In this document: in pieces, positions 3,915 through 56,478 of the stretch
How the letters are laid out: each line of letters starts with the position of its first letter
Numbering within the stretch: position 1 is the stretch's first letter
The notes under the pieces: model-generated
The model's database searches: none
Seen by the model: the letters and a program-made list of their open reading frames with translations, nothing else
Told to the model about the DNA's origin: nothing
Assembly (NCBI GenBank): GCA_900317285.1
Contig: ONGA01000010.1
Span: forward strand, 62,001 to 126,000
From: an uncultured Bacteroidales bacterium
Lineage (GTDB): Bacteria; Bacteroidota; Bacteroidia; Bacteroidales; P3
Direction of reading: 5' to 3'
DNA length: 64,000 bases
Translations under genes and position numbers: made by a program

Positions 3915-5015
3915 TTACACATTGAATCTGAAGTGCATGATGTCGCCATCCTGGACAACGTAATCTTTGCCTTCGACGGAAATCTTGCCTGCTTCGCGGC
4001 ATTTGGCTTCGGAGCCGAGGGCAACATAGTCGTCGTACTTGATAACTTCGGCACGGATAAAGCCACGCTCGAAGTCGGAGTGGATAATACCCGCAGTCTG
4101 AGGTGCTTTCATTCCCTTGCGGAAGGTCCACGCGCGGCATTCCTTGGGACCTGCAGTGAGGAAGGTCTGGAGGTTGAGGAGGCGGTAGGCGGCCTTGATG
4201 AGGCGGTTGACGCCGGACTCCTTGAGACCGAGGTCCTCGAGGAACATCTGTTTCTCCTCGTAGGTTTCGAGTTCGGCGATGTCGGCTTCGATACCGGCAC
4301 CAATGACGAGCACTTCGGCGTTCTCGTCCTTGACAGCCTCACGGACGGAATCGACATATTTGTTGCCGTTGACAACAGAGTTTTCATCGACGTTGCAGAC
4401 GTAGAGCACAGGCTTGGTGGTGAGGAGCATAAGGTCGCGTGCCACTTCGGCCTGGTTTTCGTCGAGCTGGACGGTACGTGCACTCTTGCCTGCAAGGAGG
4501 GCTTCCTTGTAGAGGTCCATCACCTCGACAAGTTTTTTGGCACGGGCGTCGCCACCGGCTTTGCCTTTTTTGACTTCTTTGTCGTAGCGGTTCTCGATGG
4601 TTTCGAGGTCTTTGAACTGGAGTTCGAGGTCGATGGTGAGTTTGTCGCGCACGGGGTCCACGGTGCCGTCGACATGCGTGATATTGTCGTCGTCGAAGCA
4701 GCGGAGCACGTGGATGATGGCGTCGCAGTTGCGGATATCGGCAAGGAACTTGTTGCCGAGACCCTCGCCTTTGGAGGCGCCTTTGACGAGACCGGCGATG
4801 TCGACAATCTCGACGGTGGCGGGTACGACGGAGGCCGGGCGTTCAATCTCGACGAGTTTGGCGAGGCGTTCGTCGGGGACGGTGATGACGCCGACGTTGG
4901 GTTCGATGGTGCAGAACGGGAAGTTGGCGGCCTGGGCTTTAGCGTTGCTGAGGCAGTTGAAAAGGGTTGACTTGCCAACATTGGGCAGTCCTACTATACC
5001 ACATTGGAGGCTCAT
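3915..5015 (-). CDS. ychF: Redox-regulated ATPase YchF/Ola1
   Basis: A 366-residue Obg-superfamily P-loop NTPase of full family length. The G1 motif is GLPNVGKSTLFN at about 9-20, the DIAGLVKGA switch-II motif lies at about 72-80, and a TGS domain forms the C-terminus and ends DGDIMHFRFNV. YchF/Ola1 proteins hydrolyse ATP rather than GTP and bind ribosomes and stress factors. The gene is 14 bp downstream of the glycosyltransferase and 12 bp upstream of the porW-like gene, so it is part of the leftward run. Assignment is secure. Confidence 0.97.
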   Translation of the reverse strand: MSLQCGIVGLPNVGKSTLFNCLSNAKAQAANFPFCTIEPNVGVITVPDERLAKLVEIERPASVVPATVEIVDIAGLVKGASKGEGLGNKFLADIRNCDAIIHVLRCFDDDNITHVDGTVDPVRDKLTIDLELQFKDLETIENRYDKEVKKGKAGGDARAKKLVEVMDLYKEALLAGKSARTVQLDENQAEVARDLMLLTTKPVLYVCNVDENSVVNGNKYVDSVREAVKDENAEVLVIGAGIEADIAELETYEEKQMFLEDLGLKESGVNRLIKAAYRLLNLQTFLTAGPKECRAWTFRKGMKAPQTAGIIHSDFERGFIRAEVIKYDDYVALGSEAKCREAGKISVEGKDYVVQDGDIMHFRFNV

Positions 5016-6490: not shown

Positions 6491-6711
6491 TGTCGGTTGT
6501 CCTGTTTTTAGTTTTTTTCTCCTATGTTATAGAAACGTTTTCTCCTATGTCCGGTTGGTTTTTGTACTACATTATAGAACGGTTTTCTCCTATGTCTGAA
6601 TTTTTTTCTCCTATTGTTTTACTACCATTTAACTACCATTCTATATCGGTTGTTCTATTATTCTACTATGATGCGTATATGATGCGTATATGTTTCTCCT
6701 ATGTCGGGGGG
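6491..6711 (-). repeat. Intergenic 11-bp-period CATAG repeat, type A, copy 1 (expanded)
   Basis: Read on the minus strand this begins right after the AsmA stop codon with CCCCCCGA and then 11-bp units in register: CATAGGAGAAA, CATATACGCAT twice, CATAGTAGAAT, AATAGAACAAC, CGATATAGAAT, GGTAGTTAAAT, GGTAGTAAAAC, AATAGGAGAAA (6703 down to 6605). Further CATAGGAG cores follow near 6594, 6547 and 6523. It shares its start and several units with the copies at 15.1 and 33.8 kb. No ORF or terminator is convincing within it. Confidence 0.85.
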
Positions 6712-12613: not shown

Positions 12614-15010
<2,397 letters not shown>

Positions 15011-25938: not shown

Positions 25939-25970
25939 CAAAGATACGACATTTTTCCGACGTGTGCAAA
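25939..25970 (-). promoter_or_regulatory. pfkA promoter
   Basis: On the minus strand TTTG (25970-25967), 20 bp, then TATCTTTG (25946-25939). The predicted leader is about 50 nt. Confidence 0.8.
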
Positions 25971-26015
25971 ATTATTTTTCCACTATCCGCAGAGGCCTCC
26001 GCAAACCTCCCATGA

Positions 26016-26115
26016 CATAGGTGAATCATAGGTACGACATAGGAGCGACATACTATCATCCATAGACCTAGCATAGAGTTACCATAGAGGTACCATAGAC
26101 CTAGCATAGAGTTAG
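26016..26115 (-). repeat. 11-bp-period CATAG repeat, type B, copy 1
   Basis: Nine units read on the plus strand: CATAGGTGAAT, CATAGGTACGA, CATAGGAGCGA, CATACTATCATC (12 bp), CATAGACCTAG, CATAGAGTTAC, CATAGAGGTAC, CATAGACCTAG, CATAGAGTTAG. It lies between the pfkA promoter and the structured element at 26116-26242. Strand is given as that of the upstream promoter. Confidence 0.92.
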
Positions 26116-26242
26116 CGGGTATAGTTTTTTGTGAATTAAATGGATGTATTGTTTTGAAAATCAGTGCCGATGATATTTATCTTCCTGACAATCAGCCTCT
26201 ATTTTGATTTTCATATGGATTTTTCATCCCGTTTTGCAATTG
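26116..26242 (-). ncRNA. Candidate structured leader/small RNA, copy 1
   Basis: On the minus strand, downstream of the promoter at 26273-26243, this aligns without gaps to 56306-56422. Conserved arms are GGAT/ATCC (26229-26217), TGAAAATC/GATTTTCA (26213-26206 with 26162-26155) and an inner CTGA/TCAG hairpin (26195-26185). Segments between the arms have diverged to about half identity while the arms are unchanged. No open reading frame is conserved between copies. The transcript would run on through the CATAG repeat toward pfkA. Confidence 0.5.
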
Positions 26243-26273
26243 CAAAGTTACGAAAGTTGAGCGAAATGGCAAA
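26243..26273 (-). promoter_or_regulatory. Promoter of the type B element, copy 1
   Basis: Minus strand: TTTG at 26273-26270, 19 bp, TAACTTTG at 26250-26243. The position relative to the element is the same as at 56453-56423. Confidence 0.65.
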
Positions 26274-26390
26274 ATTTTTTTTTGACATTTCCGAAATGAA
26301 GTAACGTCGGCGCTAGCCAAAGGTACGAAGTTTTTTGTGATTGTTTTGTCCTTTAACTACTTTTAACTACCTTTATCTATTTTAACTGGC

Positions 26391-26432: not shown

Positions 26433-28889
26433 ATGGAGGAGAAGGTTCCATATTTTGCTGATGTGCTGTTGCCGTTGCATTTGCGCGACACTTACACTTA
26501 CCGGATTCCGCGCGAGCTGGAGGGTGAGGTGCGAGTGGGCGTGCGCGTGGTGGTACAGTTCGGAGCGAAGGGCAGCCGGTTGTATTCGGCTGTTGTGCGG
26601 CGTGTGCACCAGGATGCGCCGCCGAGGATGACGAAGTATGTGATGTCGGTGTTGGACGAGGGGCCTGTGGTGAGTGAGCGGCAGATGGAGTTTTGGGAGT
26701 GGATGGCGCGGTATTATATGTGTTATCAGGGTGATGTGATGTCGGTGGCGCTGCCATCGGGGCTGAAGCTGGCGAGCGAGAGTGCTGTGGCGATTGACCC
26801 GGCGTTCGGCGGCGACCTTTCGGGTTTGTCGAAGTATGAACGGATGGTGGTGGAGGAGTTGAGCAAGCATTCTGTGATGCGTGTGGCGGAGTTGAGCCGT
26901 GCGCTGGGTTTGCAGAAGGTGATGCCGCTGATCCGCGGGATGATGGAGAGGGGTATTGTGGTGATGGACGAGGAGTTGCGGGAGCGGTTTGTTCCGAAGC
27001 GGGTGCAGTATGTCCTGTTGTCGGAAGATTACCAGGATGAGGATGCACAGAAGGGGCTTTTCGACGAGCTGGAGCGCAAGAAGCGTGTGAAGCAGGTGGA
27101 GTTGTTGATGCAGTTCCTGCAGTTGTCGCATTTCGGGAAGGAGGCTGTGGCGAAGGGTGTTTTGCCGAAGGGTTCGGCGTTGCAGACGCTTGTGAGGAAC
27201 GGTGTGTTGAGGGTGGAGGAGCGCGAGGAGAGCCGCCTGGAGGTTTACGGCGACGGTGAGCTGACGGACCCTGCCTCGATTGTTCTCAACGAGGAGCAGC
27301 AGGAGGCGTTTGGTTTAATTGATAATGGAAAAGATTCCGTCTGGCTTCTGCACGGGGTGACTTCGAGCGGGAAGACGGAGGTGTATATTAAGCTGATTGA
27401 CAAGGTGGTGAAGTCGGGCGGGCAGGTGTTGTTCCTGTTGCCGGAGATTGCGCTGACGGCGCAGCTCATCAACCGCCTGAGGAGGTTTTTCGGCGACAAG
27501 GTGGGTGTGTACCATTCGCGTTTCAGCGTGGGCGAGCGCACGGAGGTGTGGCGCCGCACGCTGAGGGGTGAGTACCGGGTGTTGCTGGGTGCGCGGAGTG
27601 CGTTGTTTCTGCCGTTCAATGATTTGCGGCTTGTTATTGTGGACGAGGAGCACGACAGTTCGTACAAGCAGTTCGAGCCCGCGCCACGTTATCATGCGCG
27701 CGATGCGGCGCTTTATCTGGCGCGCCTGTGGGGCGCGAGGACGGTGCTGGGGAGTGCCACTCCGAGTGTGGAGTCGTTTTTCAACGCGATGTCGGGCAAG
27801 TATGGCTTTGCGAGCATGCAGCAGCGCTACGGTGGTTTCAGCCTGCCGGAGGTGGTGTGTGTGGACATGAAGGAGGCGCACCGGAGGGGTGAGGTGAAGG
27901 GTGCTTTCTCGCGTGAGTTGCTGGAGGCTGTGGGGAGGGCTCTGGACGAGGGGCGGCAGGTGATTCTGTTCCAGAACCGGAGGGGTTTCTCGCTGCACCT
28001 GGAGTGCGACGACTGCCACGAGGTGCCGCAGTGTGTGCATTGCGATGTGTCGCTGGTGTATCACAAGGCGACGAATTCGCTGCGCTGCCATTATTGCGGC
28101 TATTCGATTCCGGTACCCAGCGAGTGTCCGGCGTGCCATTCGACGCATTTGAGGATGGCCGGTGTGGGCACTGAGCGCATCGAGGAGGATTTGCAGATTC
28201 TGTTCCCCGAGGCACGTGTGGCACGCATGGATTTGGACACCACGCTGCAGAAGGGCCGCTATCTGGACCTTATCAATGATTTCGAGAACCGCCGCATCGA
28301 TATTCTGGTGGGTACGCAGATGGTGACGAAGGGTTTGGATTTCGAGAATGTGACGGTGGTGGGCATTGTGAATGCCGACAATATGATTAATTATCCGAAT
28401 TTCCGTTCGTATGAGCGTGCGTTCCAGCAGATGACGCAGGTGAGCGGACGTGCGGGTCGCCACGCGAGCGGCGGGCGGGTGATTATACAGACGTACAACC
28501 CTCATCACCAAGTGATTTCGGATGTAATGAACGCCGATTACCGGCATTTGTACGAGGAGCAGATTCAGGAGCGCCGGGTTTTCCGCTATCCGCCGTTCTA
28601 CCGGCTGATTGAGATCACGCTGAAGCATCGCGACGCGGGTGTGCTGAACGAGGCGGCGGAGTGGATGGCGCATCAGCTGCGGGGTGTCTTTGCGGGTCGT
28701 GTGATGGGCCCGGAGTATCCGCTGGTGAGCCGCATCCGCGGGCTTTACCTGAAGACTGTCACGCTGCGTTTCGAGAAGAGCGAGTCGATTGCCGACGCCA
28801 AGCGTGTAGCTATGAAAATAGCCGACGACCTAACCCTGCAGGAGGGCTGGTCGTCGGTATCGGTTCTCTTTGATGTAGATCCCTATTAG
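26433..28889 (+). CDS. priA: Primosomal protein N', replication-restart helicase
   Basis: An 818-residue superfamily 2 helicase. The N-terminal DNA-binding part begins YFADVLLPLHLRDTYTYRIP. The Walker A motif HGVTSSGKTEVY is at about 306-317, the DEEH box (VDEEHDSSYKQ) at about 402-412, and eight zinc-binding cysteines lie in the CDDCHEVPQCVHCDVSL to CPACHSTHL region (about 525-570). PriA reloads the replisome at stalled forks. A TTG 42 bp upstream is in frame but lies inside the promoter, so ATG 26433 is chosen. Third codon positions are rich in G and T, unlike the C-ending codons of most neighbours. It overlaps the convergent outer-membrane protein gene by 4 bp. Confidence 0.96.
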   Translation: MEEKVPYFADVLLPLHLRDTYTYRIPRELEGEVRVGVRVVVQFGAKGSRLYSAVVRRVHQDAPPRMTKYVMSVLDEGPVVSERQMEFWEWMARYYMCYQGDVMSVALPSGLKLASESAVAIDPAFGGDLSGLSKYERMVVEELSKHSVMRVAELSRALGLQKVMPLIRGMMERGIVVMDEELRERFVPKRVQYVLLSEDYQDEDAQKGLFDELERKKRVKQVELLMQFLQLSHFGKEAVAKGVLPKGSALQTLVRNGVLRVEEREESRLEVYGDGELTDPASIVLNEEQQEAFGLIDNGKDSVWLLHGVTSSGKTEVYIKLIDKVVKSGGQVLFLLPEIALTAQLINRLRRFFGDKVGVYHSRFSVGERTEVWRRTLRGEYRVLLGARSALFLPFNDLRLVIVDEEHDSSYKQFEPAPRYHARDAALYLARLWGARTVLGSATPSVESFFNAMSGKYGFASMQQRYGGFSLPEVVCVDMKEAHRRGEVKGAFSRELLEAVGRALDEGRQVILFQNRRGFSLHLECDDCHEVPQCVHCDVSLVYHKATNSLRCHYCGYSIPVPSECPACHSTHLRMAGVGTERIEEDLQILFPEARVARMDLDTTLQKGRYLDLINDFENRRIDILVGTQMVTKGLDFENVTVVGIVNADNMINYPNFRSYERAFQQMTQVSGRAGRHASGGRVIIQTYNPHHQVISDVMNADYRHLYEEQIQERRVFRYPPFYRLIEITLKHRDAGVLNEAAEWMAHQLRGVFAGRVMGPEYPLVSRIRGLYLKTVTLRFEKSESIADAKRVAMKIADDLTLQEGWSSVSVLFDVDPY

Positions 28890-56084: not shown

Positions 56085-56216
56085 ATCCAAAAACATCTTT
56101 ATTTTCTTTTTCCAAAACAACAAATAACACTTTTTATTGTCCAAGCCGCGAAAAAAAAATCCCCAATTCCCCACCCCTCCTCCAGACCTTCTTGCCTATG
56201 CTAAATCATAGGTACG

Positions 56217-56305
56217 ACATAGGAGCGATATACTATCATCCATAGACCTACCATAGAGTTACAATAGAGGTACCATAGACCTAGCATAGACCTACCGGAC
56301 ATAGT
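56217..56305 (-). repeat. 11-bp-period CATAG repeat, type B, copy 2
   Basis: Units on the plus strand: CATAGGTACGA, CATAGGAGCGA, TATACTATCATC (12 bp), CATAGACCTAC, CATAGAGTTAC, AATAGAGGTAC, CATAGACCTAG, CATAGACCTAC. Same order and register as 26027-26115, including the single 12-bp unit. Confidence 0.93.
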
Positions 56306-56422
56306 TTTTTGTAAATTAAAGCAATGTATTGTTTTGAAAATCAACGCAACTAACAGTTATCTCACTGATAATCAGCCCTTATTTCGATTTTCACATGGAT
56401 GCTTCATCCCGTTTTGCACTTG
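56306..56422 (-). ncRNA. Candidate structured leader/small RNA, copy 2, upstream of htrA
   Basis: Gap-free counterpart of 26116-26242. Arms: GGATG/CATCC (56409-56397), TGAAAATC/GATTTTCA (56393-56386 with 56342-56335) and inner CTGA/TCAG (56375-56365). The copy 1 arm GGAT/ATCC extends to five pairs here. A transcript from the promoter at 56453-56423 would continue through the CATAG repeat into htrA, giving a leader of about 330 nt. Confidence 0.5.
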
Positions 56423-56453
56423 CAAAGATACGAAAGATATCCGAACCGACAAA
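56423..56453 (-). promoter_or_regulatory. Promoter of the type B element, copy 2
   Basis: Minus strand TTTG (56453-56450), 19 bp, TATCTTTG (56430-56423). Confidence 0.75.
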
Positions 56454-56478
56454 AAAAATTTTGAACATTTTCAAAAAC

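Follow-up and report, generated by a model that had tools for sequence, protein, structure and literature searches.

A dispersed, apparently non-coding element with a promoter box and an 11-bp array in an uncultured Bacteroidales bacterium

The intergenic DNA between pfkA (PF00365; 24652–25884, minus strand) and priA (PF17764 plus helicase domains; 26433–28889, plus strand) raises the question of what kind of unit is placed there. An earlier note on the window (the whole stretch of 64,000 nt analysed, to which all positions refer unless a contig is named) had read positions 26116–26273 as copy 1 of two of a candidate structured RNA with its own promoter, serving as a leader or a small RNA.

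Layout, copies and borders of the element

Copy 1 lies on the minus strand and shows, in this order, a Bacteroidales -7 promoter box, a head of ~115 nt and about nine 11-nt units. The promoter is there as the note had described it, with TTTG at 26270–26273, 19 bp upstream of the -7 box TAACTTTGCA (26241–26250), and its equivalent precedes copy 2, also on the minus strand (TTTG at 56450–56453, the same 19 bp spacer, box TATCTTTGCA at 56421–56430). Behind the box come the head, i.e., the 5′ part of the putative RNA (26127–26240 in copy 1, 56307–56420 in copy 2), and then the array (26016–26124 and 56207–56304), which in copy 1 consists of about nine units of the TAGGTCTATGG type with CCTATG closing the last one. 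The match of ~130 bp reported between the two places is real and was drawn too short, the copies sharing 84% identity over 267 bases including the 11-bp array (26024–26290 against 56204–56470, E 1.9e-77). In the same way, the extent given for copy 1 covered promoter and head and left out nearly all of the array.

The count of two fails at the level of the genome (2,069,581 bases in 28 contigs), where a query of 281 bases round copy 1 revealed at least 34 loci. As the search scored 40 of its 79 first-look candidates, which yielded 40 matches, the figure is a minimum; chance is excluded as an explanation by the number of loci within one genome together with the best other copy, which matches copy 1 with E 8.3e-93. 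A further copy lies past the window's end, at C3:133136. Classified by their heads, 21 copies are full and of the main type, three are of the main type with an insertion or a large deletion, one has lost most of its head, eight have a diverged or different head (several of these retaining short motifs of the main one by eye, e.g., CTGAT...CAG) and one is cut by a contig end; internal deletions were found, for instance, at C25:26415, C11:14715, and C14:26626. The other six matches are the second piece of a deleted copy and five promoter segments of other genes, namely a PNPase-like gene (two matches), ribosomal protein L13, an AMP-binding enzyme and tRNA-His, all of which the element resembles in its DNA up to the box.

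The head and the array differ in how far they reach. A covariance model of the head found 24 places, all in the host genome, and had no match in 119 other genomes of the genus under stricter filters and with the best 30 candidates per genome scored. The exact array pattern gave 31 matches in the whole host genome, all within known copies, and three loci elsewhere in the genus, in one genome of 118 others (G056), with weak partial blastn matches of the array in the sister genomes G002, G008, and G022. Judged from these matches, the array is not strictly private to the host species, unlike the head. Searches for carriage on a phage or plasmid found no match, viral contigs giving four 19-mer matches that lacked the remaining head and none for the array. 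In none of the 11 relatives checked was pfkA found adjoining priA.

The mean pairwise identity of the 17 ungapped main copies is 0.26–0.28 upstream of -60 (counted from TTTGC), 0.57 just before the box and 0.91 at the box, then runs through 0.70, 0.85, 0.62, and 0.88 along the head, reaches 0.93 in the array core, the most conserved part of the element, and drops to 0.71 for the later units and, past +265, to 0.28. Since identity falls away on both sides, we consider the unit discrete, with its left border at the promoter. The outer flanks of the copies are unrelated, and the upstream DNA is of more than one kind by eye, including GTAGTTAAA-rich and PNPase/L13-promoter-like versions. By all appearances we are dealing with a non-coding element that is dispersed and specific to its lineage. 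A second repeat, GTAGTTAAA / TTTAACTAC, advancing in 10–11-bp steps, was seen in the window at 26350–26387 and 6617–6640; many copies have it in the gap that separates their promoter from the divergent gene, and it precedes priA as well.

Promoter, base pairing and a putative array RNA

All 33 copies that have upstream DNA carry TAnnTTTG[CT] before the array, the nearest box being 73–173 nt away and at exactly 151 nt in 19 of them; in the intergenic strands around them, where 42,529 positions held 34 boxes, a stretch of 180 nt has a chance of ~0.13 of containing one. TAnnTTTG is the consensus of the Bacteroides primary sigma factor according to PMC7366714. Even the eight copies with diverged or different heads keep box and array. 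A -33 TTTG with a spacer of 17–23 bp is present in only 14 of the 33, and among 20 copies examined for a terminator 4 have a hairpin and T-run behind the array, with no consistent intrinsic terminator apparent in this set. The element is probably transcribed into RNA.

The structured nature of that putative RNA is another matter. The earlier note had seen three kept pairing arms and taken them as a sign of selection on RNA structure. Over 21 aligned copies 92.5% of the cells of these arms are paired, with clear differences among them: the 8-bp stem (5′ arm GAAAATCA at 26205–26212 and 3′ arm TGATTTTC at 26156–26163 in copy 1, minus strand; 56385–56392 with 56336–56343 and one G-U pair in copy 2) pairs in 100%, CTGA/TCAG in 95.2% and GGAT/ATCC in 74.7%, being broken in 21 of 83 cells, so that the outcome which the note had named as refuting, additional copies that break the arms, is seen for one of the three. 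The 8-bp stem is intact in all 21 copies yet almost invariant, its few changes all keeping the pair via G-U. RNAalifold on the 21 aligned heads returned this stem plus a weaker inner helix, with a covariation term of almost nil.

Measured against 500 shuffles, the paired percentage of the three arms was reached by 28 and their covariation score by 50, and with the inner helix replacing the third arm by 23 and 31, respectively; pairs with a double change were reached by 364 (three arms) and 162 (inner-helix variant), so among these 21 copies we found no compensatory changes beyond the shuffled controls. Slid controls paired far worse than the structure, as expected for a structure taken from these very sequences. 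The full 225-nt RNA of copy 1 folds no better than its shuffles (z -0.15 on the minus strand, +0.29 on the plus strand), and ten of the 21 aligned heads gave z from -1.1 to -3.0 (mean about -1.7), values that are not independent because the copies are related. Selection on base pairing is therefore not borne out, with covariation within reach of the shuffles, one arm broken in a quarter of its cells and the folding energy of copy 1 unexceptional, and the "structured RNA" reading is only partly supported.

Two other remarks of the note were sound. Within the head, divergence does peak in the segment between two of the arms (identity of 0.62 in the 17 ungapped copies, with 0.85 and 0.88 in the segments flanking it), and no known RNA family could be assigned, Rfam giving no match at gathering score in the window; a search of 25950–26350 with Rfam 15 at E up to 1 gave a sole sub-threshold match, snR76 (E 0.92, 16.6 against 55 bits). 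Conservation is patchy, being high for the box (0.91), the array core (0.93) and the stem-bearing segments (0.85–0.88) and lower for the loops (0.62–0.70), a pattern compatible with selection.

We take the promoter-driven array to be the constrained unit because box and array persist where loops, and in some copies entire heads, have changed. The explanation that we prefer, with evenly balanced confidence, is that copy 1 may be one of at least 34 lineage-specific, dispersed, non-coding transcription units whose array RNA would act as a multi-site platform. A copy consists of a -7 box of the sigma-ABfr type, a head of ~115 nt, which in the main subfamily includes a clamp stem, and about nine 11-nt units; transcription would yield an RNA of ~200–230 nt in which the repeated 11-nt motif could be the constrained working part. 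The array would then offer binding sites, one per helical turn, to a protein or RNA partner, and the simplest model is an RNA produced from many loci with about nine evenly spaced sites for a single partner, perhaps working as titrating RNAs or multicopy sRNA families do. No binding partner emerged, a scan of the host genome for RRM_1 proteins detecting none. As the flanks are unrelated, the element has presumably spread by being copied to new intergenic sites. If transcribed, dozens of similar array RNAs would be expressed by this genome beside mostly housekeeping genes, and to our knowledge few RNA regulators are known in the phylum.

Among known systems the FopS family of sRNAs comes closest. 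According to PMC11697453, FopS of Bacteroides thetaiotaomicron comprises 14 copies of ~65–70 nt, conserved across the Bacteroidaceae and bound by the RRM protein RbpB. The element shares with it the many paralogous, mostly intergenic genes per Bacteroidota genome and the canonical sigma-ABfr promoters, and as far as FopS is described there it is set apart by its at least 34 copies, the predicted ~200–230 nt, the restriction to one species and the 11-nt array. Many paralogous loci (at least 34, with 24 heads found by the covariance model) and a sigma-ABfr -7 box before every copy (33 of 33) are features of a multicopy sRNA family. A by-phylum survey of exact 11-mer tandem repeats is reported in PMC4060949. 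In the open-licence PMC literature we found no description of the element or of 11-bp arrays in Bacteroidales.

Two further comparisons may be drawn. Titrating RNAs of the CsrB/RsmZ type have few genes, GGA motifs and CsrA as a partner; the proposed likeness is that of one RNA with many short motifs soaking up its partner, although the element has 11-nt CUAUG-type units and tens of genes. Dispersed repeats of the REP/BIME and MITE types are multicopy, intergenic and species-specific, as is the element, and the palindromes of a sister genome (G009, see below) are REP-like; the element differs from them in its 11-bp internal periodicity and its promoter box, and no link to a Y1 transposase was seen.

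Arrays of 11-bp units across the genus

A possible though unlikely alternative is that the element works as DNA, the array serving either to bind a protein in helical phase or, as a repeat, to organise the chromosome, with an incidental promoter and an RNA that has no role. It draws its strength from the genus, where 11-bp arrays of varying sequence are the commonest tandem repeat in the intergenic DNA sampled. We sampled 54 stretches of 43 genomes (mostly the first 20 kb of a contig, some picked beside priA or known arrays), and in their 343 intergenic regions 53 of the 153 best TRF arrays have period 11, the next being period 9 with 14; counting periods 22 and 33 as well, 58 of the 343 regions, about one in six, carry such an array. 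A subset of 13 genomes had 13 period-11 arrays against 0.3 per shuffled set, other periods also exceeding their shuffles less strongly (period 9, 7 against 0.5; period 8, 5 against 0.7). In 73 intergenic regions identity is in excess at lags 11, 22, and 33 (z 10.6, 6.9, and 4.1), with lag 8 high too (z 8.3) and lags 6, 7, and 14 raised. Six other families of the order, with 5.6 kb of intergenic DNA, showed no lag-11 excess, and period 11 accounted for 3 of their 8 best arrays.

Unit sequences vary by species, although some neighbours have similar units (examples are L216 of G009 at 1006, 9324, and 15111, L218 of G012 at 4819, L222 of G003 at 13970 and L217 of G010 at 1262). The genome G009 has a dispersed family of palindromic 11-bp units (CTACCAACTCC / GGAGTTGGTAG, e.g., L257–L281) with at least 80 match rows on both strands (40 of 211 candidates scored), and when 23 of its copies are lined up the arms of the near-perfect palindromes change together by eye, as would suit a site read in DNA. 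Another dispersed family, of 22 rows at 11 places, was found in G003. A promoter box within 200 nt pointing at the array, from either direction, was present for only 1 of 40 sister-species arrays, hand-chosen from 58 by leaving out 18 that were short, A+T-rich or poor. The 39 arrays without a box tell us that such arrays can exist without an array RNA. What speaks against the DNA-level reading is the host itself, since incidental capture would not lead one to expect a box in all 33 copies with upstream DNA, at an almost constant distance.

Taking both sets of arrays together, we speculate, with still less confidence, that the genus may hold a fast-turning class of 11-bp-unit elements which in this species would have become a promoter-driven family of array RNAs with a functional motif, the machinery involved reading helical phase and not sequence. 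The question that this wider pattern poses is which process makes or keeps repeats at the helical turn.

Three CTATNGTANNN units used as a pattern hit 74 stretches in GTDB genomes, 66 of them titled Bacteroidota. With four viral stretches added (78 arrays, oriented by mechanical gene calls), the CTAT strand is antisense to both neighbours in 26 and sense in 8 (p 0.003). A stop-codon barrier, suggested by units that seemed to hold stops on the sense strand, was rejected: in a set of 58 arrays, those between tandem genes gave much the same counts for sense (48) and antisense (47), and the strand excess observed was reached by 13 of 300 sets with shuffled units. G008 (L068) and G022 (L069) have a common element with an 11-bp CTATGGTAACT-like array, a hairpin ATTATTATATCTTCGATATAATAAT ahead of it and differing left flanks. 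Long 11-bp arrays also occur, among the matches listed, in the MEOG01 contigs of Bacteroidetes bacterium GWF2_35_48 (L093, L105, L135), and in some of them units of either orientation surround a single site.

Somewhat more doubtful than either of these readings is a selfish repeat of the MITE kind, with a promoter and without a function for the cell, its conservation reflecting recent spread. Such a repeat could account for a head model that matches one species only, for the unrelated flanks and for the internal deletions of some copies. However, neither terminal inverted repeats nor target duplications were seen by eye in the aligned ends, and recent spread alone predicts even divergence, yet the loops diverge far more than box and array. 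No reverse transcriptase was detected in the host genome, and the only Y1 transposase found sits among different, REP-like hairpins. This sole match (G000:C13:30811–31152, L232) lies between hairpins of the CCCCGTAGGGGCG and CCGTGGGC types by eye. A RAYT-mobilised REP was rejected, the single transposase being flanked by other hairpins and the array pattern being absent from its 3.3-kb locus.

Neighbouring genes and reading frames

Another reading makes the element a cis-acting leader or regulator of its neighbouring genes (pfkA for copy 1). Orientation was derived from gene calls by codon usage trained on the window's genes, and Pfam agreed with the called strand in 19 of the 20 left and 7 of the 10 right genes that were scanned. 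On its promoter side (left) the element has a divergent gene in 28 of 32 copies (p 2e-5), and the gene beyond the array is convergent, facing the element with its 3′ end, in 23 of 33 and in the same direction in 10. Between tandem genes the element is antisense in 20 cases and sense in one, which is copy 2 of the window; mechanical gene calls differ, with 15 antisense and 4 sense between tandem genes and 7 and 7 for the other arrangements. This bias suggests that insertion has a preference, or else that a promoter which would read into genes is selected against. Among the left neighbours, Pfam matched priA, RecA, a Clp ATPase, SRP54, a topoisomerase, TGT, DapB and two tRNA-modifying enzymes, together with a TonB receptor, an outer-membrane efflux protein and peptidases, and no common pathway was seen among the neighbours scanned with Pfam.

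The orientation bias and the lack of a common pathway argue against a cis leader, which we regard as very improbable. Copies 1 and 2 do stand upstream of same-direction genes, and 10 of 33 copies have such a gene beyond the array, but the other 23 face a convergent gene, 20 of them running antisense between tandem genes, the neighbours share no function, and pfkA has a second promoter-like box closer to its start by eye. In the choice between a leader and a small RNA that the earlier note had left, a leader of pfkA is thus the unlikely branch.

Least credible of all is a small peptide gene read through the array (MLGLWYLYCNSM...), which we rejected for want of protein-level constraint in the array frame. 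The note's statement that no reading frame is shared was confirmed, with none of the six frames free of stops over head plus array in any of the 17 ungapped copies. One frame is open across the first 21 array codons in most copies, and the longest ATG-to-stop frames on the element strand span 19–35 codons in 24 main copies; against a coding role, over those 21 codons 25 copies show 0 synonymous and 12 non-synonymous single-base codon variants (40:149 being possible), several copies have internal stops, and 7 of 33 have ATA in place of the first ATG.
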